40,274 bases of DNA, taken from assembly GCA_001897995.1 (NCBI GenBank), contig MKRV01000140.1:1-40274 (forward strand), read 5' to 3'. Under the pieces are notes generated by a model, which made no database searches, had not been told where the DNA came from, and was given only the letters and a program-made list of their open reading frames with translations. The translations under genes and the position numbers were made by a program. Shown in pieces: positions 14,719 through 40,221 of this stretch. Source of the stretch: Alphaproteobacteria bacterium 65-37. Its GTDB lineage: Bacteria; Pseudomonadota; Alphaproteobacteria; Reyranellales; Reyranellaceae. Position 1 is the stretch's first letter, and the number at the start of each line of letters is the position of its first letter.

Positions 14719-14904
14719 GGCGCCAACTTTGTGGGCGGACCAATATTTTCCTCACCCTGAGGAGCCGCGCGTAGCGCTGCGTCTCGAAGGGCATGGCCTG
14801 AGGCAACCGAAGGCTGGGAACGAGCACCACGCCTGAGGCCTACCCTTCGAGATGCGGCCCTACGGGCCGCTCCTCAGGGTGAGGGGTCTCTGTGAGTTAG
14901 CGCC
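14719..14904. repeat. 186-bp imperfect hairpin repeat (family A, copy 1)
   Basis: Nested inverted repeats fill the RND/MFS convergent gap. The outer arms are GGCGCCAACT (14719-14728) against AGTTAGCGCC (14895-14904), with one mismatch. The 16-bp perfect inner arms are CCTCACCCTGAGGAGC (14750-14765) and GCTCCTCAGGGTGAGG (14869-14884). Inside these lie GTCTCGAAGGG and its near-complement CCCTTCGAGA. Copy 2 is inside 20083-20291. It is non-coding as far as I can see and may double as a terminator for both genes. Confidence 0.85.
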
Positions 14905-16180: not shown

Positions 16181-16201
16181 GGCGCCCTTCCCCAACTTGA
16201 T

Positions 16202-16217
16202 TACACAGGTCGGTGTA
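16202..16217. promoter_or_regulatory. TetR operator O1 (MFS-proximal)
   Basis: TACACAGGTCGGTGTA has TACAC/GTGTA half-sites and lies 22 bp upstream of the MFS ATG. It shares 15 of 16 bases with the second site at 16253-16268, the difference (G for T at position 11) breaking perfect symmetry. Repression of the MFS gene is inferred from its position. Confidence 0.75.
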
Positions 16218-16252
16218 CCTTATTGTCGAGAGAGACGAGGTCAAGGCAAAAG

Positions 16253-16268
16253 TACACAGGTCTGTGTA
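16253..16268. promoter_or_regulatory. TetR operator O2 (abuts the regulator start codon)
   Basis: TACACAGGTCTGTGTA is a 16-bp palindrome with 7-bp perfect arms around GT. It ends two bases before the tetR ATG and therefore covers the leader and any ribosome-binding site; the only SD-like bases (AGG) are inside it. Its centre is 51 bp from O1. Autorepression is the natural reading. Confidence 0.78.
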
Positions 16269-16270
16269 AC

Positions 16271-16852
16271 ATGACGCGATCCGACGACAGAACGGCCATG
16301 CAGGAACGCATCCTCGAGACGGCGGACCGGCTGTTCTACGGCCAGGGCATCCGCGCCGTGGGCGTCGACACGATCGCGGCCGAGGTCGGCATCAGCAAGC
16401 GCACGCTCTACAACTACTACCCCTCGAAGGACGACCTGATCGTGGCCTACCTGTCGCGGCGGCTGAAGCCGGCGCCGCCGTCGGAGCGGCCGCCGCTCGA
16501 CCAGATCCTGGGCAATTTCGAGCGCCTGGAGCGTACGATAAGCACCAGCGTGTTTCGCGGCTGTCCCTTCGTCAACGCGGTGGCCGAGCTCAAGGACCCC
16601 AGCCACGCCGCCACGCGCATTGCGCTCGCCTTCAAGGAGCAGCGGCGCAAGTGGTTCCAGGAGCTGCTGGAGCGGCTGGGCGTGGCCGACGCGGAGACCT
16701 TGTCGCTGCAGCTCCTGCTGCTGGTCGACGGCGCCATCGCTGCCGCGATCGTGCGCGGCGATCCCAAGGTCGCAACAGCGGCGCGCCAGGCCGCGATGGT
16801 ATTGCTTCAGGCGGCCGGCGTGGAGATGCCGCGCAAGCTCAGGAAGGATTAG
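16271..16852 (+). CDS. TetR/AcrR-family transcriptional regulator
   Basis: A 193-residue repressor. The N-terminal TetR helix-turn-helix spans about residues 10-60 (RILETADRLFYGQGIRAVGV, then TIAAEVGISKRTLYNYYPSK), and the remainder is a helical ligand-binding domain. The pattern GISK.TLY.YF.SKD.L is canonical for the family. The ATG at 16271 immediately follows operator O2. It is divergent from the MFS transporter, the classic arrangement for a local efflux/uptake repressor. Its 3' end overlaps the convergent DinB gene by 14 bp. A cysteine in FRGCPFVNAVAEL (about residue 98) is the conserved feature of a TetR subgroup related to NemR/AcnR-like proteins; this subgroup link is tentative. Confidence 0.93.
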   Translation: MTRSDDRTAMQERILETADRLFYGQGIRAVGVDTIAAEVGISKRTLYNYYPSKDDLIVAYLSRRLKPAPPSERPPLDQILGNFERLERTISTSVFRGCPFVNAVAELKDPSHAATRIALAFKEQRRKWFQELLERLGVADAETLSLQLLLLVDGAIAAAIVRGDPKVATAARQAAMVLLQAAGVEMPRKLRKD

Positions 16853-17336
16853 GCCGCAGCACGCGGTGCAGATCGAGGCTTGGCGGCTTGTAGCCGAGCT
16901 GGCTCAGCAGGGTGTGCACCTGCGCGCGATGATGGGTCTGATGATTGAAGAAGTGCGGCAGGACGACAAGGAGCGGATCCTCGGTGTCGAGACCGGCATT
17001 GTTGATGTAGTGCACCGCACGGCTTTCAAAGCCGTGGGGCAGATCGGCGAAGAACTGTTCGATGCGACGATCCATCTGCTCGCGCGCCACGCGCAGCGCC
17101 TCGAACTTTTCGAACAGGATCGCGTCGAGATCGGTCGAGACATGGCTGCCGCCCTCGAGGCGCGCCATCCAGATACGATCGCCCAGGAGGAGATGATTGA
17201 GCGTGCCGTGCACGCTGCCGAAGAAGGCGCCGAGGTCGCGGCGGTACTCCGCGCCGCTCAGTTGGGCGCAGGCGGCGTAGAGGGCTTCGTTGGCCAGGCG
17301 ATTGTAGCGGGCGTATTGCGCCCAAAGGATCGCCAT
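16839..17336 (-). CDS. DinB-family metal-binding four-helix protein
   Basis: A 165-residue protein of DinB/YfiT fold. The likely metal triad is visible as H47 (HGTLNHLLLGDRIWMARLEG), H132 and H136 (VLPHFFNHQTHHRAQVHTLL); the HxxxHH..Q pattern near the C-terminus is characteristic. Members are thiol-dependent transferases or of unknown function. The ATG at 17334-17336 was chosen for the normal N-terminus MAILWAQYARYNRLANEALY. A GTG at 17355-17357 would add seven residues. It lies 22 bp after a 43-residue ORF and probably shares its promoter. The 3' end overlaps tetR by 14 bp on the opposite strand. Confidence 0.88.
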   Translation of the reverse strand: MAILWAQYARYNRLANEALYAACAQLSGAEYRRDLGAFFGSVHGTLNHLLLGDRIWMARLEGGSHVSTDLDAILFEKFEALRVAREQMDRRIEQFFADLPHGFESRAVHYINNAGLDTEDPLLVVLPHFFNHQTHHRAQVHTLLSQLGYKPPSLDLHRVLRPNPS

Positions 17337-20082: not shown

Positions 20083-20291
20083 GCTGGGAAGGCGCGACTT
20101 CGCGCGAAGTGGCGCTAACTTCTGCGCGGACCAGCAACACAACCTCACCCTGAGGAGCGAGCAAAGCGAGTGTCTCGAAGGGTGGACCTCAGACGTGGTG
20201 CTCGCTCCCACCCTTCGAGACGCGGCCTGCGGCCGCTCCTCAGGGTGAGGAATCTCTCTAAGCGAGCGCCAATGAGTGGCGTGCTCCCAGC
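20083..20291. repeat. Nested hairpin repeat (family A copy 2 inside a family C palindrome)
   Basis: The outermost arms are GCTGGGA (20083-20089) and TCCCAGC (20285-20291); the right arm as AGTGGCGTGCTCCCAG closely matches the purH/purT palindrome. Inside lie GGCGCTAACTT (20111-20121), CCTCACCCTGAGGAGC (20143-20158), GTCTCGAAGGGTGG (20172-20185) and their complements CCACCCTTCGAGAC (20208-20221) and GCTCCTCAGGGTGAGG (20235-20250). It fills the convergent gap between the hydratase and C45 genes; the right arm is three bases from the C45 stop. Confidence 0.85.
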
Positions 20292-23705: not shown

Positions 23706-24716
23706 TCATTGCGCCTTTATCCCCTTGGCCTTGAGCACGCGTTGCCAGTAGTTGCTCTCCGTCTCGATCGTCTTGGCGAACTCGGCCGGCGAGCCGTCCA
23801 GAGCCACGATCATGCCGAGCTCTTCGAACGACTTGCGCATTTCCGCGACCATGGCCTCCTGAAGAGCGCGATGCAGTCGATCGACGATGGCCGTCGGCGT
23901 GCCGCCCGGCAGCATCAGGCCGAACCACGCGCTGGTATCGGCTTCGGCGAATCCGGCTTCCGCCAGCGTCGGAATCTCGGGCGCGGACGGAGAGCGCTTC
24001 AGCGATGTCACCGCGAGCGCTCGGAGCTTGCTGTCACGTACGAGCGGAAGGGCGGTTCCGATGTTGCAGAAGCAGGCGCTGACCCGCCCTGACAGCAGGT
24101 CCGGATAGATCGCCGGACCGCCCTTGTAAGGAACGGGCGTGAGGCTGACGCCGGCCAGATTTTCGAGGAAGACTCCGGCCAGGTGCTGCGATGTACCGAT
24201 GCCGACATGGGCATAGGTGAGGCCTTCCGGCCTGCTTCGCGCAAGGCTCACGAACTCGGCCAGCGTCTTGGCGGGAAGTTCCGGCGGCACGACGAGCAGG
24301 TTGGGTGTGACGACCACACGCGAGACGGGGGCAAGGTCACGGACCGGATCGTAGCCCATATTGTCGAACAGATGCTGGTTCACCACGAGACTGGCATTGC
24401 CGGCCAGCAGTAGCGTGTGCCCGTCGGGCGAAGATTTAGCGACCGCCGCCGCAGCGAGATTGCCGGAAGCACCAGGCAGGTTCTTGACGACCACGGGCTG
24501 TCCCAATTCATCCTTGAGCTTGTTGCCGATGGTACGTGCAACCATGTCCGGTGCCGATCCAGCGGGGAAGCCGACGACGATCTCGACCGGTCGGCTGGGA
24601 TAGGCCGGTTGCGCGGTCGCTGGACCAAACACCGTCAGTAGGCAGAGCAAGGTGCTGGCCACCGCTAAAAGCTTGCCAGCTCTGCGCTCAATTGGCGTAG
24701 ACGTCGATCGACTCAT
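23706..24716 (-). CDS. Bug/TctC-family periplasmic solute-binding protein
   Basis: A 336-residue exported binding protein of the tripartite tricarboxylate transporter (TTT) type. The signal peptide follows ERRAGKLLAVASTLLCLLTV to about ATAQ. The mature start AYPSRPVEIVVGFPAGSAPD and the motif QPVVVKNLPGASGNLAAAAV are diagnostic. The ATG at 24714-24716 has AGGAG in front; the frame is open to 24947. No TctA/TctB membrane genes are adjacent, so this is one of the many orphan Bug proteins of soil proteobacteria. It is divergent from a BTAD regulator (168 bp), which may regulate it. Confidence 0.93.
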   Translation of the reverse strand: MSRSTSTPIERRAGKLLAVASTLLCLLTVFGPATAQPAYPSRPVEIVVGFPAGSAPDMVARTIGNKLKDELGQPVVVKNLPGASGNLAAAAVAKSSPDGHTLLLAGNASLVVNQHLFDNMGYDPVRDLAPVSRVVVTPNLLVVPPELPAKTLAEFVSLARSRPEGLTYAHVGIGTSQHLAGVFLENLAGVSLTPVPYKGGPAIYPDLLSGRVSACFCNIGTALPLVRDSKLRALAVTSLKRSPSAPEIPTLAEAGFAEADTSAWFGLMLPGGTPTAIVDRLHRALQEAMVAEMRKSFEELGMIVALDGSPAEFAKTIETESNYWQRVLKAKGIKAQ

Positions 24717-24884
24717 GGAACGGCACTCCTTCGAGCTTGTCGCTGCCAGTATCCGGATTGGATGGACAAGGACCGTCAAAAAGGCGTGAAAGGCTGTGTC
24801 CCCTCGCCTAAGAATATCGGGGCGAACGGTCGAACAAACCGGCCAGCCGCCCCCTGCGGCCGCCAGGGCACGGATGCCAAAACA

Positions 24885-26891
24885 ATGTCGCAGCACGGCA
24901 AACCGGCGATCAACCTCCTTGGGCCCTTCGAGCTGAGAGCAGGACAAGGCCCTTCGCCTAAACTGCCCAAGAAGGCCCAGGCATTACTCTGTTTCCTCGC
25001 GATCGGCCGCGGCCGGCCCATGTCACGCGATCAGCTCTCGACCCTGCTGTGGGGCGATACCCCCACGGAGCAGGCACGGCAGAGCCTTCGGCAGTCGCTC
25101 TCTTCCCTGCGCACGGCTCTAGGTGCCCAAGACGCGCCGCTCCTCGTCGCCAACGCAACCGACGTCATGCTGGCGGGCGGCGACGGGATTTCAGTGGATA
25201 CGGAGACCTTTCTCGATCTGTCGGCTTCCGCCGAAATCGAGGGCCTGAAGCGCGCCGGCGGCCTCTATCGCGGCGAATTGCTGGCCGGCTTGCACGTCGA
25301 AGCCGATCCGTTCGAACGCTGGCTCGGCGCTGAACGGCAAAAATGGCTCGGCGTACAGCTCGAACTGCAGAATCGTCTGGCTATGATCCAGGCCAAGGTT
25401 GGCCGGATCGCCGAGGCAATCGCGTCGGCGCAGCGCGTCGTCGAACTCGATCCGCTGAACGAGCCCGCGCATCGCCTGTTGATGCAGTTGCTCGCCCGAT
25501 CGGAGCAGCGTGCCGCGGCGCTCAGGCAGTACGAACAGTGCCGCGAGATACTGCACCAAGAGCTGGGTGTCGCGCCCGAAACCAAGACCGTGCAGCTCGC
25601 TGATATCATCCGATCCGGCGCGCCTGCCGCCGAGATTGTTCCTCAGCCGACCAAAACCTCCCGATCCGATCGCGGTGAGGCGGGTCCCGACAAGCCGTCG
25701 ATCGTCGTCCTGCCGTTCGCCAATCTGAGCGGTGATCCGGACCGTGATTATTTCGTCGAAGGATTGGTCGACGACATAAGCGTCGCGCTCGGGCGCGAAA
25801 GCTGGTTGTTCGTCCTCGCGGGACCATCGGCGCAGGCCTTGAAGGCAGTGGCCGGCGATTTGTCGACGATCTCCACGAAGCTGGGTGTTCGGTATGTCCT
25901 CAAGGGCAGCGTACGCATTGCCGGCGACGATGTCGTCCTCGTTGCCCAACTCACCGATGCGCAACGTGCCGTGCAGATCTGGTCGGAACGTTTCCACGAC
26001 CGGATCGACAACATATTTGCCCTGCAGGAAAGGCTGACGACAAGGGTCGTGGCGATGATCGCGCCGGCCTTGAAGTCGGTGGAAGTCGATCGCGCGCGGC
26101 GCAAACCGACGAACAATCTGACGGCCTACGATCTCTACCTGCAGGCACTGCCGCGCTTTCGGTCGAGCCGACAGACGAACGAAGAAGCACTCGCCTTGCT
26201 GCGCCGTGCCGTCGAGTTGGATCCCGGCTATCCGACGGCGCACGCGCTGGCGGCTCGCTGCTTCCAGTTCCAGCTCATGTTCAACTGGCGGCCACCTGAC
26301 GATCCAGGCTTTGCCGAAGGCGTCCGATTTGCGCACCGGGCCCTGGAGATCGGCAAGGACGATTCGGAAGCCTTGTGGATGGCGGCGCTGGCCCTGGTGC
26401 ATCTTTCAGGGGAGATCGACCATGTCCTCGCGCAAATGGAACGGTCGCTCGCGCTCAATCCCAATTCGGCAAACGCCTGGACTGCGAGCTGCTTCGTGCA
26501 CAGCTATCTCGGAGACAGCGTCACGGCGATCGACCATTTCCAGCGTGCCCAGCATCTCAATCCGCTGGACTTGTCGCAGCATGTCCACTGGAACGCAGTG
26601 GCCTGGGCCTACCTGGGTGACGATCGTCTCGAGGACGCGCATGACGCGGCCGTCCGAACGCTCAATGTCGTTCCGACCTATCCGCCGGGCTTGCGGATGA
26701 AACTGAGCACCTGTGGCCTGCTGGGTCGCCATGACGAGGCGCGGGCCTGCGTGGAACGACTGCTCGAGGTGCAGCCCGGTAGCAGTGTGCGGTGGTTGAG
26801 CCGGTTCCTGCGAGCCGCGCTGCAACGCAATCGCCATGCCTACGAAATCTATATCGAGGGCGCCCGACGCGCTGGTCTGCCGGAAAGCTGA
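24885..26891 (+). CDS. BTAD-domain transcriptional regulator with TolB/FlgO-like segment and TPR repeats
   Basis: A 668-residue multidomain protein (the frame extends to 24762, which would give 709). Residues about 8-95 look like an OmpR/SARP-type winged helix (LLGPFELRAGQGPSPKLPKK, then MSRDQLSTLLWGDTPTEQAR). Residues 100-235 match the bacterial transcriptional activator domain, ending QYEQCREILHQELGVAPETK. Residues about 265-400 are a TolB-like segment (SIVVLPFANLSGDPDRDYFV, then GVRYVLKGSVRIAGDD). The remainder is TPR-like helices (ALLRRAVELDPGYPTAHALA). Such SARP/CadC-like cytosolic regulators are common in Bradyrhizobium-like genomes. The start is uncertain because neither ATG has a strong SD. 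It is divergent from a Bug gene. Confidence 0.85.
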   Translation: MSQHGKPAINLLGPFELRAGQGPSPKLPKKAQALLCFLAIGRGRPMSRDQLSTLLWGDTPTEQARQSLRQSLSSLRTALGAQDAPLLVANATDVMLAGGDGISVDTETFLDLSASAEIEGLKRAGGLYRGELLAGLHVEADPFERWLGAERQKWLGVQLELQNRLAMIQAKVGRIAEAIASAQRVVELDPLNEPAHRLLMQLLARSEQRAAALRQYEQCREILHQELGVAPETKTVQLADIIRSGAPAAEIVPQPTKTSRSDRGEAGPDKPSIVVLPFANLSGDPDRDYFVEGLVDDISVALGRESWLFVLAGPSAQALKAVAGDLSTISTKLGVRYVLKGSVRIAGDDVVLVAQLTDAQRAVQIWSERFHDRIDNIFALQERLTTRVVAMIAPALKSVEVDRARRKPTNNLTAYDLYLQALPRFRSSRQTNEEALALLRRAVELDPGYPTAHALAARCFQFQLMFNWRPPDDPGFAEGVRFAHRALEIGKDDSEALWMAALALVHLSGEIDHVLAQMERSLALNPNSANAWTASCFVHSYLGDSVTAIDHFQRAQHLNPLDLSQHVHWNAVAWAYLGDDRLEDAHDAAVRTLNVVPTYPPGLRMKLSTCGLLGRHDEARACVERLLEVQPGSSVRWLSRFLRAALQRNRHAYEIYIEGARRAGLPES

Positions 26892-27619: not shown

Positions 27620-28657
27620 CTATGCCGCCTTCCCCGCGGCGATCAGCGGACAGCCGAGATGGGCCCGGCTGCAGGGCATCGACTTGGCGCCATGGCAAAC
27701 CGTCCCGGTCGGCTCCGCCAGGGCGGCGCGCACGCGATCGGCGAGGCCTGCGATGAAGGACGGATGCGTGCCCACGGTCGGTACTCGAACATAGGTCGAC
27801 ACCCCGTTCTTCTCGGCAAGATGACGATACTCGATGTCGAGTTCGACCAGGGTCTCGGAGTGCTCCGACACGAAGCTCAGGGGATAGAGCACCACGGCCT
27901 TGCCGTCGGCGCCGGCGCGCGCGATCTCGGCATCGGTCGACGGGCCGATCCATTTCAGCGGCCCCACCCGGCTCTGATAGCAGACCGACCAATCGAGGCC
28001 GCCGATCCGATCGGCGATCGCCTGCGCCGTCCTCTCGACCTGGCTCTGATAGGGATCGCCGGCCTTGATGACCCGCTCGGGCAGGCCATGCGCCGAAAAC
28101 AGCACGCGCGTCGCCAGGGTGCCGGCCTCGCGCAGCCCCTGCTGCAAGAGTTCGGTCGAGGCGGCGATGAAACCGTCCTCGTCGGGATAGCAGCAGACAG
28201 TCTGGGTCGACACCACGAGCTTGGCCTTGGCTGCTGCTTCCCGCCAGGCCTTCACCGACGAATCGGTCGTCGTGGTCGAGAATTGCGGATAGAGCGGCAG
28301 CAGCACGATGCGATCGGGAGCGAAGCGTTTCACCGACCGCACGACGGCGTCCGTCATCGGGTGCCAGTAGCGCATGCAGACATAGCCGCGCCATTCGTGA
28401 TCCGGACCTAATGCTTCTTCGAGCGCCCGCGCCTGCGCCTCGGTCTGCCCGAGAATGGGCGAGCTGCCGCCGATCCTGGCGTAGATGCCCTGCGCCTTGG
28501 GCGTGCGCCGGCGGGCGATGAAGCTGGCCAGCGGCCCGCGCAGCAGCGCCGGCAGGCGCAGGATCGCTGGATCGCTGAACAGATTGCGCAGGAAGGGCTG
28601 CACCGCTTCGGGCGAGTCGGGCCCCCCGAGATTGAACAGAATGATCGCGACCTTCAC
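27620..28657 (-). CDS. hemH: Ferrochelatase
   Basis: A 345-residue ferrochelatase that inserts Fe2+ into protoporphyrin IX. Motifs are VAIILFNLGGPDSPEAVQPF, RIGGSSPILGQTEAQA, the catalytic histidine H190 in LFSAHGLPERV, and YPLSFVSEHSETLVELDIEY. The C-terminal tail has three cysteines (TVCHGAKSMPCSRAHLGCP) of the kind seen in alphaproteobacterial ferrochelatases that hold a [2Fe-2S] cluster; the fourth ligand was not identified, so the cluster is only suggested. The start is GTG at 28655-28657, overlapping the hemE stop by four bases (GTGA), indicating translational coupling with hemE. Confidence 0.95.
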   Translation of the reverse strand: MKVAIILFNLGGPDSPEAVQPFLRNLFSDPAILRLPALLRGPLASFIARRRTPKAQGIYARIGGSSPILGQTEAQARALEEALGPDHEWRGYVCMRYWHPMTDAVVRSVKRFAPDRIVLLPLYPQFSTTTTDSSVKAWREAAAKAKLVVSTQTVCCYPDEDGFIAASTELLQQGLREAGTLATRVLFSAHGLPERVIKAGDPYQSQVERTAQAIADRIGGLDWSVCYQSRVGPLKWIGPSTDAEIARAGADGKAVVLYPLSFVSEHSETLVELDIEYRHLAEKNGVSTYVRVPTVGTHPSFIAGLADRVRAALAEPTGTVCHGAKSMPCSRAHLGCPLIAAGKAA

Positions 28658-29697
28658 GACTCACCCGGTTTCCAGGTCCGTACGATCTCGACGAGTTGCG
28701 CGACATGCTCCGGCGGCGTCTGCGGTACGACACCATGGCCGAGATTGAAGATGAACGAGCCGTGCCCAAGCTTGTCGAGGATGCGCCTGGCTTCTCGCTC
28801 GAGGGCCGCGCCGCCCGCGACCAGCATGATAGGATCGAGATTGCCCTGCACACAGATATGCGGCTGCAGTTCCTTGGCCGCCCAATGCGCGCCGATGCCG
28901 GTATCGAGCGACAGGGCGCTGAAGCTGTCCGGCCGGCGATACATCAACGCCGCCGGGCCCACAGCGCGTGGAAAAGCCAGGACAGGGACGTTGGGATGGC
29001 GTTCGCGCAGCCCCGTGGCGATGCGTACCATGGGGTCCAGCGACCAGCGGAAGAGCTGCTCCTCCGGCAGCACGCCGGCCCAAGAATCGAAGAGCTGCAC
29101 CCCGTCGACGCCGGCTTCGACCTGGTTGGAAAGGTGATCGACCACGGACTCGACCAGCAGGTCGATCAGCAGCCCGAAGGATTCGGGGTGCCCATAGGCC
29201 CACTTCTTCACTTTGGCGAAGTCGCGGCTGCCGCTGCCTTCGATCATGTAGCAGGCAAGCGTGAAGGGCGCGCCGGCAAAGCCCAGCAGCGCCGTCTCGC
29301 GCGGCAGGGCGGCCCGGGTCTGCCGGATCGCCTCGTAGACGGGCGCGAGATGGTCGGCCAGCCGGGCGCGCGACAGCCGGGCGAACTGTGCCGGATCGGT
29401 CAGGGCCTCGAGTTTCGGGCCCTCGCCCTCCTCGAACCAGACTTTCTGGCCGAGCGCATCCGGAACGACCAGGATGTCGGAAAAGATGATGGCGGCGTCG
29501 AAGCCGAAACGCCGGATGGGCTGTAGGGTTACTTCGACCGCCTTGTCCGGCGTGTAGCAGAATTCGAGGAATGACCGGGTGGTCGCGCGCACGGCGCGGT
29601 ATTCCGGCAGGTATCGGCCCGCCTGGCGCATCAGCCAGACCGGTGGCGTCGCAAAGCGCCGCCCGGCCAGTGTCTCCAGGAATTTCCCGCTGCTCAA
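28654..29697 (-). CDS. hemE: Uroporphyrinogen III decarboxylase
   Basis: A 347-residue protein matching HemE. It removes four carboxylates from uroporphyrinogen III to give coproporphyrinogen III. The substrate-binding motif WLMRQAGRYLPEYR is at 21-34 and the key aspartate D74 is in IIFSDILVVPDALGQKV. Further motifs are GFAGAPFTLACYMIEG and DSWAGVLP. The start is read as TTG at 29695-29697 with GAGGA in front. In several alphaproteobacteria, including Caulobacter and Rickettsia, hemE borders the chromosome origin, and its promoter lies within or beside it. Here the upstream gap has the same character (see oriC). Confidence 0.96.
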   Translation of the reverse strand: MSSGKFLETLAGRRFATPPVWLMRQAGRYLPEYRAVRATTRSFLEFCYTPDKAVEVTLQPIRRFGFDAAIIFSDILVVPDALGQKVWFEEGEGPKLEALTDPAQFARLSRARLADHLAPVYEAIRQTRAALPRETALLGFAGAPFTLACYMIEGSGSRDFAKVKKWAYGHPESFGLLIDLLVESVVDHLSNQVEAGVDGVQLFDSWAGVLPEEQLFRWSLDPMVRIATGLRERHPNVPVLAFPRAVGPAALMYRRPDSFSALSLDTGIGAHWAAKELQPHICVQGNLDPIMLVAGGAALEREARRILDKLGHGSFIFNLGHGVVPQTPPEHVAQLVEIVRTWKPGES

Positions 29698-29739
29698 CGC
29701 ATCATCCTCATGCCTTCCCTCTTACCTAATCATAATAGG

Positions 29740-29767
29740 TAGTAGGAGTAGTAGAGGGTGTGGCACA
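29740..29767 (+). promoter_or_regulatory. DnaA-trio array, GC spacer and DnaA-box-like site
   Basis: Read on the plus strand: TAG-TAG-GAG-TAG-TAG (29740-29754), AGGG (29755-29758), then TGTGGCACA (29759-29767). This order matches the reverse complement of the basal unwinding system described in Bacillus subtilis (DnaA box, GC cluster, then 3'-[G/A]A[T/A]-5' trios). Four of five triplets fit the consensus; the box keeps the TGTGG core but has three mismatches to TGTGGATAA. An AT-rich stretch with ACCTA/TAGGT arms lies just beyond the trios. Confidence 0.62.
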
Positions 29768-29823
29768 TGGGGATGCGCCTTATTGATGAATGCTCCCCAG
29801 GCGCCTGTGGATCGGCGACGCCC

Positions 29824-29867
29824 GATTCCACGCGATTCGGGCGCAGGATTCCCGATTCGCAGGATTC
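29824..29867. promoter_or_regulatory. Cluster of five GATTC (GANTC, CcrM-type) sites
   Basis: GATTC starts at 29824, 29834, 29847, 29854 and 29863: five sites in 44 bp. The sites alternate between CGATTC and GGATTC, with GCAGGATTC repeated 16 bp apart (29843 and 29859). CcrM adenine methyltransferase methylates GANTC in alphaproteobacteria, and such sites near the origin mark replication state. The function here is inferred. Confidence 0.65.
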
Positions 29868-30020
29868 TCCTCCCAAGCTGTCCGCAAGGGATGATCACCG
29901 GGATGGGACGGGCGCGCCGGGGTTGGAATCCGGGCCTCCGGGAAAAGGTCGCCGGCTGTCCCCGTCTTCCAACCGACAATCCCGCATTTCTCCCGAGAGG
30001 CCTGTGGGGTAAAACGGGCC

Positions 30021-30854
30021 GTGGCGAACCGGAATTTTCACGTCCATCTCGTGTCCGACTCGACCGGCGAGACCGTGTCGAGCGTCGCGCGCGCCTGTCT
30101 CGTGCAGTACGAAGGCATATTCGTGCAGGAGCATGTCTGGTCGCTGGTGCGCACACCGGGCCAGATGGAGAAGGTGATGCAGGCGGTCGAACGCGATCGC
30201 GGACCTGTGCTGTATACGCTGGTCGATCCCGAACTGCGCGACGTGGTGCGTGATCATTGCCGGCGTCTGCAATTGCCCTGCGTCGGTGTGCTCGATCAGG
30301 CGATGAGTGTGCTGGCCGTGCATTTCCATTCCAAGAGCGAGCAATGGCCCGGCCGCCAGCATCAGCTCGACGAAGGCTATTTCGATCGCATCGATGCCAT
30401 GCACTACACCTTGGCGCACGATGACGGGCAGTCGACCCACGATCTCGAGGATGCCGACGTCATTCTCGTCGGGCCGTCGCGCACCTCCAAGACACCGACC
30501 TGCGTCTACCTCGCCAATCGCGGGGTGCGTGCCGCCAACGTGCCGCTGGTGCCCGCCGTGCCGCCGCCGGTCGAACTCGAGGAAGCCAAGCGCCCGCTGA
30601 TCGTGGGCCTGATCACCGATCCGGAACGGCTGGTGCAGATCCGCGTCAATCGCCTGCGGCTGCTGCAGCGCGAGACCGAGACGGACTATACGGACATGGA
30701 GCGCGTGCAGCGCGAGATCCAGGAAGCGCGCCGCCTCTACGCCCGCCGCAAGTGGGCGACCATCGACGTCACACGCCGTTCGATCGAGGAAACGGCGGCG
30801 GCGATCCTGCAAATGCTGGCGACACGTCGCGATCAGAGGTTGCAGGCCGGATAA
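30021..30854 (+). CDS. ppsR: Pyruvate, water dikinase (PEP synthase) regulatory protein, DUF299/PPSR
   Basis: A 277-residue protein of the PPSR/PDRP (DUF299) family, bifunctional ADP-dependent kinase and Pi-dependent pyrophosphorylase that switches PEP synthase or PPDK off and on. Signature elements are HVHLVSDSTGETVSSVARAC at 8-27 and the P-loop-like GPSRTSKTPT at 151-160. The start is GTG at 30021-30023. It is divergent from hemE across the candidate origin, an arrangement shared with other alphaproteobacteria. In those genomes maf, aroE and coaE often follow; here they do not. It implies a PEP synthase or PPDK gene elsewhere in the genome. Confidence 0.93.
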   Translation: MANRNFHVHLVSDSTGETVSSVARACLVQYEGIFVQEHVWSLVRTPGQMEKVMQAVERDRGPVLYTLVDPELRDVVRDHCRRLQLPCVGVLDQAMSVLAVHFHSKSEQWPGRQHQLDEGYFDRIDAMHYTLAHDDGQSTHDLEDADVILVGPSRTSKTPTCVYLANRGVRAANVPLVPAVPPPVELEEAKRPLIVGLITDPERLVQIRVNRLRLLQRETETDYTDMERVQREIQEARRLYARRKWATIDVTRRSIEETAAAILQMLATRRDQRLQAG

Positions 30855-32352: not shown

Positions 32353-32607
32353 ATGGCCAAAGAACTACGCAAGGGCGCTGAGGAAGCGCGTAACCAACTT
32401 CCGGACTTGCTGGCTGCCGCGGAGCAAGGACGCTCGACGATCATTACGCGCCACGGGCGTCCGGTGGCGGCGCTCGTGCCGATCGACGCCTATCGTCCGA
32501 CGGGTCGGCAGCAATCTCTGCTTCCCTTGTCGGGGAGCGGACGAGGTCTGTGGGGAAAGAACAGCACACGCACCCTTGAGCGGCTGCGCGACGAATGGAG
32601 CCGATAG
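32353..32607 (+). CDS. vapB: Phd/YefM-family antitoxin (VapB partner)
   Basis: An 84-residue antitoxin. The Phd/YefM DNA-binding fold is seen in EEARNQLPDLLAAAEQGRST followed by ITRHGRPVAALVPIDAYR, the classic 'A...L..LL..V..G....ITR.GRPVA.LVP' pattern. The C-terminal part ends ERLRDEWSR and would bind the toxin. ATG at 32353. It overlaps the toxin gene by 13 bp (stop 32605-32607). It belongs to a different antitoxin fold from the pair at 1871-2514, so the two TA systems in this window are unrelated copies. Confidence 0.88.
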   Translation: MAKELRKGAEEARNQLPDLLAAAEQGRSTIITRHGRPVAALVPIDAYRPTGRQQSLLPLSGSGRGLWGKNSTRTLERLRDEWSR

Positions 32608-33020
32608 ATCTCGCAGGTTTGCCTGAGCAGGCGCTTCTCCTACTGGATTCCGCACCGGTCATCTATTTTCTCGAGGAGCATCCAAGATTCAAACGGCGCT
32701 TCTTGCCATTGTTCGAAGCACATGCGTCGGGTGATCTCCGTTTTGCAGTGACGACGATCACGATGGCGGAAGTGATGACTGGGCCGTTGCAGGCAGGCGA
32801 TGATGCGCTGGTTCGACGCTATCGCACGGTTCTGGAATCCTGGCAGATGGTGGAACTCACCGGTGACATCGCGGAGAGTGCGGCAAGGCTACGTGCGACG
32901 CTGCGCTTCAGGTTACCGGATGCGGTACAGGTTGCCAGTGCTCTGGCAATCAATGCGGCAGCGCTCGTCACGCACGATCGTGATTTTTCACGCGTCCGTT
33001 CGTTGCGCATTATATCCTGA
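32595..33020 (+). CDS. vapC: VapC-type PIN-domain ribonuclease toxin
   Basis: A 141-residue PIN toxin. Acidic residues are D18 (LLLDSAPVIYFLEEHP), E59 (TITMAEVMTG), D109 (RFRLPDAVQVASALA) and D128/D130 (THDRDF). The core therefore looks intact. It encodes a Mg2+-dependent RNase neutralised by the overlapping antitoxin. The start ATG at 32595 lies inside the antitoxin frame. An internal region FKRRFLPLFEAHASGDLRFA is typical of this VapC subgroup. It ends 29 bp before the glnD stop, convergent with it. Confidence 0.87.
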   Translation: MEPIDLAGLPEQALLLLDSAPVIYFLEEHPRFKRRFLPLFEAHASGDLRFAVTTITMAEVMTGPLQAGDDALVRRYRTVLESWQMVELTGDIAESAARLRATLRFRLPDAVQVASALAINAAALVTHDRDFSRVRSLRIIS

Positions 33021-35845: not shown

Positions 35846-35940
35846 GTGGTGCGATCTTACAGGGGCGACCGGGCCCCCTGCCAGCACCCCTGCCAGCCCC
35901 CCTCCCAGCTCGGGCAGATTCCGTGTCATAAAGGACAGCC

Positions 35941-36303
35941 ATGAAGTTTCCTGCCCTTCTCGCTGCGGCGGCGCTGGCTTTTGGCGCTGTGGGTGCATTT
36001 GGGAGTGTGTTCGCTCAGGGTGCCGGCCGTCCGGCACTGGCTGCTCCGGCGTCGAGCCTGATCGACCTGAACAGCGCCAGCCGCGACGATCTCATGACCT
36101 TGGACGGCATCGGCGAAGTACGCGCCGACGCCATCATTCGGGCGCGGCCTTTCCGGGCCAAGACCGACCTGGTCGAGCGCCGGCTGATTCCCGAGGCGCT
36201 GTACGAGAAGCTCGCTGACAAGGTGATGGCGCGGCCCGTCCCAGGACAGCCCGCGCCGGCACCGGCCAAACCGGGGCAGCCCGCGCAGCCCAAGCGCTCG
36301 TGA
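35941..36303 (+). CDS. ComEA-like helix-hairpin-helix protein, exported
   Basis: A 120-residue protein with a signal peptide (MKFPALLAAAALAFGAVGAF to about FAQG) and one helix-hairpin-helix DNA-binding motif (DLNSASRDDLMTLDGIGEVR, then ADAIIRARPF, about residues 42-71). It has the 'LNTA...EL..L.GIG...A..I...R' pattern of ComEA. The C-terminus is a Pro/Ala/Gln-rich tail. ComEA binds DNA in the periplasm during transformation, but short homologues also occur in non-transformable bacteria. Its TGA overlaps the mnmE GTG by four bases (GTGA). Confidence 0.85.
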   Translation: MKFPALLAAAALAFGAVGAFGSVFAQGAGRPALAAPASSLIDLNSASRDDLMTLDGIGEVRADAIIRARPFRAKTDLVERRLIPEALYEKLADKVMARPVPGQPAPAPAKPGQPAQPKRS

Positions 36304-37646
36304 GCGGCGCCACGATCTATGCGTTGGGCACGCCCGTGCCCTCACGCGCGCATCCCGGCGCGATCTCGGTCATTCGCCTGAGCGGCCCGCGGGCCGGCGA
36401 TGCGCTGCTGGCGCTCACTCGAAAGGACGCCCTGCCTGCCCCGCGCCGCATGGTGCTGCGCGCGGTGGTCGATCCGCTGAGCGGCGAGACGATCGATCGC
36501 GGGCTGGTCGTCTGGTTCGCCGCCGAAAGCAGCGAGACCGGCGAACCGATGGCCGAGCTTCACCTGCACGGTGGACGGGCTGTCGTGGGCGCAGCGCTCG
36601 ATGCGCTGGCGCGGCTCGGCTTTTGCCGCCTGGCCGAGCCGGGCGAGTTCACGCGCCGGGCCTTCGAGCACGGCAAGCTCGACCTTACCGAAGCCGAAGC
36701 GATTGCCGATCTCGTGGCGGCGGAAACTGGCGCGCAGCGGCGGCAGGCCCTGCAACAGATGGATGGCGCGCTGTACCGGCTTTATGAGGACTGGCGCGGC
36801 AAGGGCGTGCGGGCGCTTGCCCATCTCGAGGCCGCCATCGACTTCCCCGACGAGGATCTGCCCGACGGGCTTGCCGACGAGGTGCGAAGCGTTATCGGTC
36901 GGCTGCAATCGGAGATTGATCATCATCTTGCCGATCGACGCGGGGAACGCCTCCGGGATGGTCTATCGATTGCCATCATCGGCCCGCCCAATGCCGGCAA
37001 GTCGTCCCTGTTGAACCTGCTGGCGCGACGCGACGCGGCCATCGTCTCGGAGACGGCCGGCACCACGCGCGACGTGATCGAGGTGCATCTCGATCTGGGC
37101 GGCTGGCCGGTTATTTTGGCCGATACGGCAGGCCTGCGGGTGACACAAGATGCGATCGAACAGGAAGGGGTGCGTCGCGCCCGTGTTCGCGCCGCCGCTG
37201 CCGATCTTCGGCTGCTGGTGCTGGATGCGACGGTTGATTGGAAAAGAGAATGGCAGTCTCTGATTGCGACAACCGACGGTTGGGATAGCCTAAAGGACAT
37301 TGTTGTCGTCAACAAAGTAGATCGCGCCAAGGTTGTATCAGATGAGGTTGTGCAACTATCTGCCAATACCAGCACGGGGCTCCCTGAACTGCTGAAGCGG
37401 CTCGAGCAGGCTGCCAGCACCCTGATGCAGGAGGGCGCCGGCGTCGCGCCGCTGACCCGCGCGCGGCATCGCGAGGCGCTGGTCGACTGCCAGGCGTCGC
37501 TCGGGCGCGCGCTTGCAGCACCGGAGGTCGCCCTCGCCGCCGAAGACCTGCGCCTGGCCCTGCGGGCATTAGGGCGCATCACCGGGGCTGTGCAGATCGA
37601 CGAACTGCTGGACGTGATCTTTCGTGACTTCTGTATCGGGAAGTGA
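36300..37646 (+). CDS. mnmE: tRNA uridine-5-carboxymethylaminomethyl modification GTPase MnmE
   Basis: A 448-residue GTPase that, with MnmG, modifies U34 of several tRNAs. The N-terminal THF-binding domain (ATIYALGTPVPSRAHPGAIS, then LHLHGGRAVVGAALDALARL), helical domain, G1 motif GPPNAGKSS (228-236), DTAG, NKVD (338-341) and the C-terminal CIGK with the catalytic cysteine are all present. The start is GTG at 36300-36302, coupled to the comEA stop. A segment around 37200-37370 (G4 region) is clearly more AT-rich than the rest of the gene. Gene order mnmE-mnmG-rsmG-parA is the standard origin-side cluster. Confidence 0.96.
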   Translation: MSGATIYALGTPVPSRAHPGAISVIRLSGPRAGDALLALTRKDALPAPRRMVLRAVVDPLSGETIDRGLVVWFAAESSETGEPMAELHLHGGRAVVGAALDALARLGFCRLAEPGEFTRRAFEHGKLDLTEAEAIADLVAAETGAQRRQALQQMDGALYRLYEDWRGKGVRALAHLEAAIDFPDEDLPDGLADEVRSVIGRLQSEIDHHLADRRGERLRDGLSIAIIGPPNAGKSSLLNLLARRDAAIVSETAGTTRDVIEVHLDLGGWPVILADTAGLRVTQDAIEQEGVRRARVRAAAADLRLLVLDATVDWKREWQSLIATTDGWDSLKDIVVVNKVDRAKVVSDEVVQLSANTSTGLPELLKRLEQAASTLMQEGAGVAPLTRARHREALVDCQASLGRALAAPEVALAAEDLRLALRALGRITGAVQIDELLDVIFRDFCIGK

Positions 37647-37692
37647 TGCCAGGCCTTGACCGGCCCGGCGCAATCTCCGACAGAGGCCCGCT

Positions 37693-39567
37693 ATGTTCCG
37701 GGCTCATTCATATGACGTCATCGTTGTCGGTGGCGGCCACGCCGGCTGTGAAGCGGCAGCGGCGGCGGCGCGCCTGGGCGCCCGGACCTTGCTGCTGACC
37801 CACCGGGTCGAAACGATCGGTGAGATGTCGTGCAACCCTGCGATCGGCGGCCTGGGCAAGGGCCATCTGGTTCGCGAGATCGATGCCCTGGACGGCATCA
37901 TGGGTCGGGCGATCGATCGTGCGGGGATCCAGTTCCGGACGCTCAATCTCTCCAAGGGGCCGGCCGTGCGGGGGCCCCGTGCCCAGGCCGATCGCAAGCT
38001 CTATCGCGCGGCCGTTCAGAATCTCCTGGCCGAGCAGGCGAACCTCGAGATCCGGGGCGAGCCCGTTGCCGACATTCTGCTGGATGCGGCAGGGATATGC
38101 GCCGGGGTGCGGACGGAAGCTGGACGAGATATTTCTGCAGGACGCGTGATTCTCACGACTGGCACGTTCCTGCGCGGCCTGATTCATATGGGCCAGAACA
38201 AGATCCCGGCAGGCCGCGTCCGCGGCAATGGGCGGGACGATGTGGTCGAGCCACCGTCGACTGCCTTGGCGCAGACGCTCGACAAGCTTGGCTTTGTCCT
38301 GGGTCGCTTGAAGACCGGCACGCCGGCGCGACTGGACGGCCGGACGATCGATTATGCGTCGTTGGAGCGGCAGGACGGTGACGACCCGCCACAGCCCTTC
38401 TCCTACCTGACCGACCGGATCACGACACCGCAGATCGCCTGCCACATCACGACGACCACGGCGGCAACCCACGAGATCATTCGCGCCAACCTCCACCAGG
38501 CGCCCATGTATTCGGGCCAGATCGAGAGTGTCGGTCCGCGCTACTGTCCATCGATCGAGGACAAGGTTGTCCGGTTTGGCCATCGCGAACGGCACCAGAT
38601 CTTCCTCGAGCCCGAGGGACTGGACGACGACACGGTGTATCCCAACGGCATCTCGACGTCGCTTCCCCAGGAAGTGCAGCTAGCCATGCTGCAGACCATT
38701 CCCGGTCTCGAGCGGACGACGATGCTGCGGCCGGGCTATGCCATCGAGTACGACCACATCGACCCGCGGGAGCTGCATCCGACCCTGGAGACCAGGCGGG
38801 TCCGGGGTCTGTATATGGCCGGCCAGATCAACGGAACGACGGGTTACGAAGAGGCCGCGGCGCAAGGGCTGATCGCCGGGCTCAACGCAGCGCTCGATAC
38901 TCCGTTCACCGTGGATCGGGCCGATGGCTATCTGGGTGTTTTGATCGACGACCTGGTGTCGCTGGGCGTCACCGAACCCTATCGGATGTTCACGTCGCGG
39001 GCGGAGTATCGCCTGTGGTTGCGGGCGGACAATGCCGATCAACGACTGACGCCCCGGGGGCTGGAGATTGGCTGTATCGGGGACACCCGCGCCCGGATGT
39101 TTCACGTGAAACAGGAAGCCCTCGAGTCCGCCCGACGTCTGGCGGACGGGCTGCGGCTCAGCCCTTCAGCCCTGGCGAAGCGAGGGGTCACAATCAACCA
39201 GGATGGGGTGCTCCGATCGGCACTCGACCTTCTGGCCTATCCGGACATCGACTGGGGTCGTTTGTCCACGCTGTGGCCGGACCTAGCGGCTGTCCCGGCG
39301 GACGTGGCCGAACAGTTGACCATTGACGCTCGCTATGAAGGATACCTCGATCGGCAGCGACAGGACATTGTCGCGTATCGTCGGGATGAGGCTTTGGAAC
39401 TTCCGGCTGATCTGGACTATGGCGCCATTGGCAGCCTGTCCAACGAAGTGCGTCAGAAGCTGCAGACGCACAAGCCGTCAACTCTGGGCCAGGCGGCGCG
39501 GATCTCCGGCGTGACGCCAGCTGCCCTGGTTGCTCTGCTGAAGCACGTCCGCCGTCGAGCGGCTTAG
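37693..39567 (+). CDS. mnmG: tRNA uridine-5-carboxymethylaminomethyl modification enzyme MnmG (GidA)
   Basis: A 624-residue FAD enzyme partner of MnmE. The FAD motif [10 protein letters not shown] is at about residues 13-22, followed by the conserved [20 protein letters not shown] and [13 protein letters not shown], and the C-terminal helical domain typical of MnmG ([20 protein letters not shown]). The start ATG at 37693 lies 46 bp after mnmE. A complete parS site (39098-39113) is embedded at codons 469-474 (MFHVKQ); many alphaproteobacterial MnmG proteins carry this peptide for that reason. It is followed by rsmG after 3 bp. Confidence 0.97.
39098..39113. other. parS site 1 (inside mnmG)
   Basis: TGTTTCACGTGAAACA, an exact 16-bp palindrome matching the conserved ParB-binding parS consensus. 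It is read within mnmG as MFHVKQ. It is identical to parS2, 502 bp away, and lies 9.4 kb from the candidate origin. Confidence 0.95.
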
Positions 39568-39570
39568 ACC

Positions 39571-40221
39571 ATGGATCCAAAACGGGATCCCCTGGCGGAT
39601 GTTTCACGTGAAACACGCCGGCGCCTGGAAGTGTTCACCGAGACCCTGCAGCGCTGGCAGAAAGCCATCAATCTGGTCAGCCGTTCGACGCTCGACGACA
39701 TCTGGGAGCGCCATATCATCGACTCCGCCCAAGTGGTCCGGCTCCTGCCGCCCGAGGCGGTGACCCTGGCCGATCTGGGCAGCGGGGGCGGATTTCCGGG
39801 CATGGTGATCGCCGCCATGCGGCCTGATCTTCAGATCACGCTTATCGAGTCCGACGCCCGGAAAGCTGCCTTTTTGGGTGAAGTTGGCCGGCGTATGGGG
39901 TTGGAAAACCAACCTAAAATCGCTATCTCAAGGATAGAGATGGCGCCACCCGTCGCGGCGGACATCGTTACGGCGCGGGCGCTCGCACCGTTGGGACAAC
40001 TCCTCGGGTGGGCCCAGCGTCACCGAAAAGATAACGCTATTTGCCTTTTCCACAAAGGGAAGGGCTGGTCGACGGAAGTCGAGGAGGCCAAGAAGGAATG
40101 GCAGTTTTCGCCCGAGCCCGTTGCCAGCGTGACCGACCGTGACGCCGTCATCCTTCGAATCGGCCCCTACCGAGCCGCCACCGGCTGCTCCCCCAACGCC
40201 TCCGACGCCCCCCTCTCCTGA
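39571..40221 (+). CDS. rsmG: 16S rRNA (guanine527-N7)-methyltransferase RsmG (GidB)
   Basis: A 216-residue SAM-dependent methyltransferase acting on G527 of 16S rRNA. The SAM-binding motif DLGSGGGFPGMVIA lies at about residues 68-81. Other family motifs are LVSRSTLDDIWERHIIDSAQ and ITLIESDARKAAFL, with IVTARALAPL. DVSRETR at residues 10-16 encodes the second parS site. The C-terminus after VILRIG is longer than usual because the frame runs into parA; the parA GTG at 40139 overlaps it by 83 bp. The ATG at 39571 is three bases after mnmG. A local AT-rich segment (about 39870-40060) resembles the one in mnmE. Confidence 0.95.
   Translation: MDPKRDPLADVSRETRRRLEVFTETLQRWQKAINLVSRSTLDDIWERHIIDSAQVVRLLPPEAVTLADLGSGGGFPGMVIAAMRPDLQITLIESDARKAAFLGEVGRRMGLENQPKIAISRIEMAPPVAADIVTARALAPLGQLLGWAQRHRKDNAICLFHKGKGWSTEVEEAKKEWQFSPEPVASVTDRDAVILRIGPYRAATGCSPNASDAPLS
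39600..39615. other. parS site 2 (inside rsmG)
   Basis: TGTTTCACGTGAAACA again, a perfect ParB site. In rsmG it is read in another frame as DVSRET (residues 10-15). Together with parS1 it forms a two-site cluster beside parA, the usual place for the chromosome-partitioning locus in alphaproteobacteria. Confidence 0.95.

Follow-up and report, generated by a model that had tools for sequence, protein, structure and literature searches.

The hemE-ppsR gap and its neighbours

The window analysed here (the whole 40,274-bp stretch from Alphaproteobacteria bacterium 65-37) belongs to a draft genome of 7.15 Mb in 319 contigs. Within it hemE and ppsR diverge from a gap of 323 bp, and this divergence, described earlier from the sequence, was borne out by the strands of the two genes and by their domain matches (Table 1). 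The hemE gene shares 93% identity with its counterpart in Reyranella massiliensis 521, and Reyranella is the name carried by many of the other best matches. Leftward the genes run hemE, hemH and hemJ; rightward ppsR is followed by a small ORF and a TctC gene, beyond which lie a PIN gene, glnD on the minus strand and then mnmE-mnmG-rsmG on the plus strand. The gap sequence has a single match within its own genome.

Table 1. Features of the window; fractions of 52 give the distinct Reyranella gaps in which the named motif is kept
Feature	Position	Strand	Remarks
hemE, uroporphyrinogen decarboxylase, left flank	28654..29697	-	PF01208, TIGR01464
hemE-ppsR gap, likely origin	29698..30020		323 bp
AT-rich weak duplex, predicted first-opening site	29721..29755		nearest-neighbour profile
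Predicted DnaA-trio array CTACTACTCCTACTA	29740..29754	-	five triplets (four CTA)
Spacer CCCT	29755..29758	-	4 bp
9-mer TGTGCCACA, predicted DnaA box abutting the W-type box	29759..29767	-	TGTGG, 38/52
W-type 9-mer GCATCCCCA, predicted weak DnaA box, upstream in cassette	29768..29776	-	TGGGGA core, 41/52
TCCCCA hexamer (Caulobacter W-box sequence)	29794..29799	+	49/52
CGATCCACA, G-box-like predicted DnaA box	29806..29814	-	TGTGGA core, 52/52
Six GANTC sites	29824..29930		at 29824, 29834, 29847, 29854, 29863, 29926
TACCCCACA, degenerate box-like 9-mer beside ppsR start	30003..30011	-	TGTGGGGTA, 41/52
ppsR, kinase/pyrophosphorylase DUF299, right flank	30021..30854	+	PF03618, PRK05339
mnmE-mnmG-rsmG block, ppsR side of origin	36300..40221	+	
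Perfect parS, inside mnmG	39098..39113		
Perfect parS, inside rsmG	39600..39615		

The preliminary description had called the gap the only intergenic stretch longer than 300 bp, a statement that hinges on the gene calls, as a simple caller left four larger gaps. Two of these hold a domain-supported gene (PIN at 32595-33020, helix-hairpin-helix at 35941-36303), a TetR-like gene is apparent, by eye only, in the gap at 16196-16865, and the existence of the gap at 24546-25019 depends on the choice of the TctC start codon. The glnD-mnmE gap (35846-36299), which lies closer to parS, was considered as a rival origin and rejected, since its conserved part codes for the helix-hairpin-helix protein; 103 of its 454 positions are invariant in 12 genomes, and its length varies from 408 to 1387 bp. 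A conserved RNA within the hemE-ppsR gap was also considered and rejected, the sole match being a sub-threshold one to a human lncRNA family (HOTTIP_1, 23.1 bits, E = 0.013, gathering score 50). Elsewhere in the window, a palindromic-looking repeat (cctcaccctgaggag ... ctcctcagggtgag) was seen, by eye only, in two intergenic copies at about 14750-14890 and 20145-20260.

A minus-strand cassette of predicted weak boxes and trios

The Reyranella set comprises the loci whose hemE is 78% or more identical to that of the window, plus locus L099; some of its members carry other names in their records. Six of the loci L001-L111 were dropped for want of hemE or ppsR (L016, L029, L039, L062, L067, L111), and merging of identical gaps left 52 distinct sequences in the Reyranella set and 31 others. 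One of the dropped loci (L029) is a second hemE copy of Reyranella soli, on a second contig and with no ppsR in the fetched stretch; the other copy in this species (L050) has the origin arrangement. Across the Reyranella set, the gap measures 321-349 bp in every locus that has both genes. In 12 genomes, 95 of its 323 positions (29%) are invariant, compared with 6-18% of the fourfold-degenerate sites of mnmE, ppsR, hemE (11 genomes) and glnD.

Read on the minus strand from 29776 to 29740, the hemE end of the gap presents GCATCCCCA, TGTGCCACA, CCCT and CTACTACTCCTACTA, followed by an AT-rich patch. Boxes and trios thus form one cassette of fixed spacing next to hemE, which had gone unremarked when trio-like repeats, an AT-rich patch and DnaA-like boxes were first listed for the gap. 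The repeats were recovered as CTACTACTCCTACTA at 29754-29740 on the minus strand. The AT-rich patch was equally evident, as the weakest 30-bp duplex of the gap starts at 29726 and only 0.04% of window positions are weaker; where it adjoins the trios, the patch ranks among the weakest 0.02-0.04% of duplex positions in the window (20- and 30-bp windows). The boxes proved to be weak, though conserved in the genus; neither the exact consensus DnaA box TTATCCACA nor the exact G-box TGATCCACA occurs in the window's gap. The best box there, CGATCCACA, has one mismatch to the Caulobacter G-box and two to the E. coli box. The others are degenerate, and the boxes beside the trios carry two to three mismatches to known boxes. 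The primary papers on the Caulobacter G- and W-boxes are reportedly those of Shaheen 2009 and Taylor 2011.

A published rule asks for a DnaA box with at most two mismatches to TTATCCACA, lying 0-16 nt from at least three trios. As coded here with TTATCCACA and two mismatches, such a rule found no match on the minus strand of the window; its box part matched at the cassette only when the Caulobacter G-box was taken as the standard (2 mismatches), while the five triplets exceed the minimum of three. With a further requirement of two CTA triplets, the published-style rule matched 4 of 52 Reyranella gaps and none of the 31 other gaps. The published box rule therefore misses a cassette whose strand and spacing are nevertheless conserved, as the following searches show.

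Tandems were sought on both strands, with mononucleotide shuffles as control. Among the Reyranella gaps, 46 of 52 contain the tandem on the minus strand and none on the plus strand (shuffled gaps, 11/2600); the six misses keep ATCCCC and most trios and lack CACA. Among the other gaps, 20 of 31 contain it on the minus strand (15 with trios) and three on the plus strand (none with trios; shuffled, 4/1550). When 13-20 nt was permitted from ATCCYC to the end of CACA, the two-box distance came out at exactly 16 nt in every one of the 61 tandems detected beside a trio run (46 from Reyranella, 15 from other gaps). An alignment of the gap among relatives, proposed at the outset as a check, found the motifs conserved, with the trio core present at three mismatches or fewer in all 52 distinct Reyranella gaps. 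Outside the genus the pattern reads roughly gATCCCCgNNaTTCACAgggatCAACTACAACTAC, and the arrays read CAACTAC instead of pure CTA triplets. A trio-only score favoured the minus strand in 23 of the 31 nearer outgroups (6 equal, 2 plus) and showed no special nearness to hemE, with best sites within 150 nt in 22 cases on the minus and 25 on the plus strand.

The search was extended to the class with a composite that added a trio score to a two-box matrix. The matrix had been trained on the gaps of the Reyranella set together with the 31 others; the trio weights were picked after seeing those 31 gaps and had already been used on the first class set. From 70 class loci (30 + 40, the latter taken by hand down a listing), L232, L241 and L243 were removed, their genomes being already among the 31, and seven without hemE in the fetched stretch were left out, giving 60 gaps (27 + 33). 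In the first set, the trio score alone placed the minus above the plus strand in 26 of 30 loci (2 equal, 2 lower), the two-box matrix alone favoured it in 21 of 27 gaps and the composite did so in 26 of 27. In the newly fetched set the composite ranked minus above plus in 30 of 33 gaps, with one tie and two lower (sign test 1.4e-6, a p-value that overstates independence because the genomes are related), bringing the overall count to 56 of 60. Mean composite scores in this set were 26.0 on the minus strand, 11.7 on the plus strand and 9.4 in shuffled sequence, and 30 of the 33 best sites fall within the hemE-proximal half. On the minus strand of the 60 gaps, the distance from ATCCYC to CACA peaks at 6 nt (9 of 15 pairs in the hemE-proximal 250 nt), and the plus strand holds two pairs with no peak. 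Taken with the composite scores, these pair counts indicate that the strict tandem occurs in a minority of the class and a looser composite in most. The exact box TTATCCACA is present in 24 of the 60 gaps. A simplified form of the published rule was rejected as a class-wide detector: it gave 19 minus and 25 plus matches in the 60 gaps and is thus not strand-specific. Judged by composite score, the predicted cassette recurs in similar form in the hemE-ppsR gap of most other Alphaproteobacteria examined.

An origin might lie here with the trios being incidental, the AT-rich patch melting after ordinary DnaA assembly on the inner boxes. The mismatches of the trio-side boxes and the impure outgroup arrays would both fit such a scheme, but strand and two-box spacing hold outside the genus too, and 46/52 and 38/52 Reyranella gaps, respectively, carry the two trio halves intact, so that we regard it as unlikely and favour a trio array that takes part in opening.

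Skew, dnaA and the par locus

Because the genome of the window is too fragmented, GC skew was followed in two single-record relatives, G022 (5,792,259 bp, with N runs in some stretches), the nearest complete relative, and G016 (a 5.44-Mb single contig), at 20 sampled points per genome and over 400 contiguous kb around ppsR. At the sampled points the skew changes sign, from negative to positive, between 4.8 and 5.1 Mb in G022, where ppsR lies at 4.987 Mb, and between 1.68 and 1.96 Mb in G016, where ppsR lies at 1.998 Mb. Over the 400 kb, the best change-points of G022 fall from -3 to +3 kb of the ppsR start and its cumulative minimum lies 2.2 kb from that start, whereas the curve of G016 is flat at ppsR, with best points at +148 and -57 kb; the mean of the two curves has its best change-point at -3 kb. 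The skew test suggested in the preliminary description thus supports the gap through the local switch in G022 and the global one in G016, but is ambiguous locally in G016. The cumulative minimum of the window itself is at 23859, 6 kb from the gap.

The same description had named a skew minimum or coverage maximum elsewhere, for instance at a dnaA-linked gap, among the findings that would count against this gap. The dnaA gene lies about 136 kb from the gap in G016 and 144-145 kb in G022 (rho, about 153 and 165 kb, respectively), and none of six dnaA loci examined with their 1.5-kb flanks contains more than two one-mismatch boxes or more than one GTAGTAG, so that a dnaA-linked origin is not favoured. 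Supported by the site with its motifs, strand, spacing and conservation, by the skew switch in G022 and by the dnaA loci, the hemE-ppsR gap is very likely the chromosomal replication origin of Reyranella, the start of replication itself being a prediction.

Alternatively, the gap could owe its strong conservation to a pair of divergent promoters that drive hemE and ppsR, the origin lying elsewhere. Divergent genes do require promoters, and the local skew of G016 leaves room for this view; against it, a search of 29600-30100 for sigma-70-like promoters and terminators found none, and a constant gap length, boxes that abut and trios do not belong to promoter architecture. The skew switch of G022 at the gap also speaks for an origin, as does the cassette matrix: the G022 gap reaches 73.2 bits, against no more than 2.7 anywhere else in the 400 kb from that genome, the gap sequences being part of the training set. 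A promoter pair in place of the origin therefore appears very improbable.

Two perfect parS sites lie 9.1 and 9.6 kb from the gap on the ppsR side, in agreement with the earlier report of parS about 9.4 kb away on the hemE-distal side. G016 has one perfect and one one-mismatch parS in mnmG and rsmG, adjoining parA and parB, which sit beside rsmG. In each of the 11 other Reyranella genomes that were compared, the single-contig G016 and G022 among them, mnmE lies on the ppsR side, and mnmG or rsmG is likewise visible in Reyranella genomes whose fetched stretch reaches that far. Of the four outgroup stretches, two show mnmE and mnmG on the hemE side, and in the other two these genes are not visible. 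Since the block is on the ppsR side here and on the hemE side in two outgroups, we infer that mnmE-mnmG-rsmG crossed the origin in the Reyranella lineage. That the rearranged neighbourhood is instead an assembly error, with the gap out of its true context, might be suspected from a draft of 319 contigs and from the opposite placement in those two outgroups, but is refuted for the part compared by the same order in all 11 genomes and deserves practically no weight.

Proposed opening and control of the origin

We put at roughly 80% the reading that this is a DnaA-dependent origin in which the two abutting weak boxes guide a DnaA filament onto the adjoining trio array, melting the AT-rich patch beside hemE. 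DnaA would bind the boxes, the trios would capture single-stranded DNA, the patch would melt first and the helicase would be loaded there. The CGATCCACA box and the other TCCCCA hexamer may recruit further DnaA, and the parABS locus about 10 kb off would pull new origins apart.

As to control, CtrA-type sites are absent, as had been claimed: TTAA-N7-TTAA occurs nowhere in the window, and was found in 0 of 52 gaps exactly and in 7 of 52 with one mismatch. Their absence is not unusual, since a review reports, in the passages available, that CtrA sites are not seen in most other alphaproteobacterial origins (PMC4468827); in excerpts of another paper, they are predicted in many Wolbachia and relatives (PMC1914354). 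An IHF consensus site was found in 0 of 52 gaps, and the IHF-alpha gene is present in 3 of 3 genomes. The GcrA family was not found in four of four Reyranella genomes (G000, G011, G016, G022), and GcrA control was rejected on this ground. Given that the gap lacks a CtrA site, control of this origin probably differs from that of Caulobacter.

The reported clustering of GANTC also held, with six sites in the gap against a mean of 1.1 in shuffled genus gaps; the 52 gaps average 4.9 per gap, and intergenic DNA carries 3.1-3.8 per kb. Three of the six are conserved (29847 in 44/52, 29854 in 48/52, 29926 in 45/52). In the 400 kb of G022, five or more GANTC fall within 250 bp at three places: eight lie upstream of dnaA, six in the origin gap together with the ppsR start (four of these in the gap itself) and five at one further place; sampled stretches yielded two more such places in G022 and one in G016. 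Clusters upstream of dnaA were seen in the window's own genome (L175:487-666, 7 in 180 bp; between rpsT and a rhodanese gene then dnaA, genes by eye), in G022 (4841142-4841381) and in G016 (2137060-2137309), with 8 in 250 bp in each of the latter two. G016 has this dnaA-side cluster and a single GANTC in its origin gap, so any methylation role is not genus-wide. The RAMA domain (CcrM-type) was found in the same four genomes, and the G011 copy matches the CcrM model (E = 1.8e-187, below the model's strict cut-off), making a CcrM-type methyltransferase likely in Reyranella. Through its GANTC cluster, the origin could respond to its own methylation state. In E. coli, clusters of the methylation site GATC at oriC and upstream of dnaA are under Dam/SeqA control. 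In the window's genome and G022, both the origin and the stretch upstream of dnaA carry GANTC clusters, a resemblance by analogy only, with GANTC/CcrM in place of GATC/Dam and G016 as an exception at the origin gap.

As a location, the gap adds a new genus to a known kind of origin; the newer part is the weak-box cassette. According to excerpts of the respective papers, Cori of Caulobacter crescentus is flanked by hemE and COG1806 (PMC1914354), TCCCCA is the Caulobacter W-box and TGATCCACA its G-box (PMC4285127), and GANTC sites were already reported in that origin (PMC3973325). Reyranella shares these flanks, G-box-like and W-box (TCCCCA) motifs, a nearby par locus and GANTC in the origin, but its gap is without a CtrA site, a consensus IHF site or an exact G-box, GcrA was not found in the four genomes, and the mnmE-mnmG-rsmG-par block is on the ppsR side. 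Predicted origins of Wolbachia, Rickettsia and relatives likewise border hemE and have DnaA-box-like sites and AT-rich DNA, but in the portions available most of theirs have predicted CtrA and IHF sites, of which Reyranella has none by consensus (PMC1914354). In the basal unwinding system of B. subtilis, as described in parts of PMC8287927, DnaA is directed onto single-stranded DNA by tandem boxes, a GC-rich stretch and trios. The order of tandem boxes, short GC-rich spacer, trios and AT-rich DNA is shared, whereas the Reyranella boxes are both weak, one is W-type, they abut without a gap, the published two-mismatch rule fails and the outgroup arrays depart from pure trios. The same parts of that paper suspected deviant trios in origins missed by its own search (PMC8287927). 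Weak W-type sites had not been identified in other bacteria, according to passages of a 2024 mini-review (PMC10797057), and in the portions available of the open-access literature searched no work pairing W-boxes with trios in alphaproteobacteria was found, some papers mentioning both.

A broader reading, tentative and in our estimate somewhat short of even odds, would join these strands. Alphaproteobacteria may share one ancestral hemE-ppsR opening cassette that the standard box rule does not single out, composed of a W-type 9-mer (roughly TNATCCCCG) abutting a CACA 9-mer, a 4-5 bp spacer and deviant trios (CNACTACNACTAC). Weak W-boxes would then be a founding element rather than a Caulobacter peculiarity, the Reyranella cassette would work with weak boxes alone and without CtrA sites, and the GANTC clusters at the origin and upstream of dnaA might provide some members of the genus with a CcrM-dependent counterpart of Dam/SeqA timing.

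The analysis places an origin for the little-studied genus Reyranella. It also offers a hypothesis for the weak W-boxes of Caulobacter, which may be the upstream half of a helix-opening DnaA platform, and the cassette rule is simple and testable in cultivable alphaproteobacteria.
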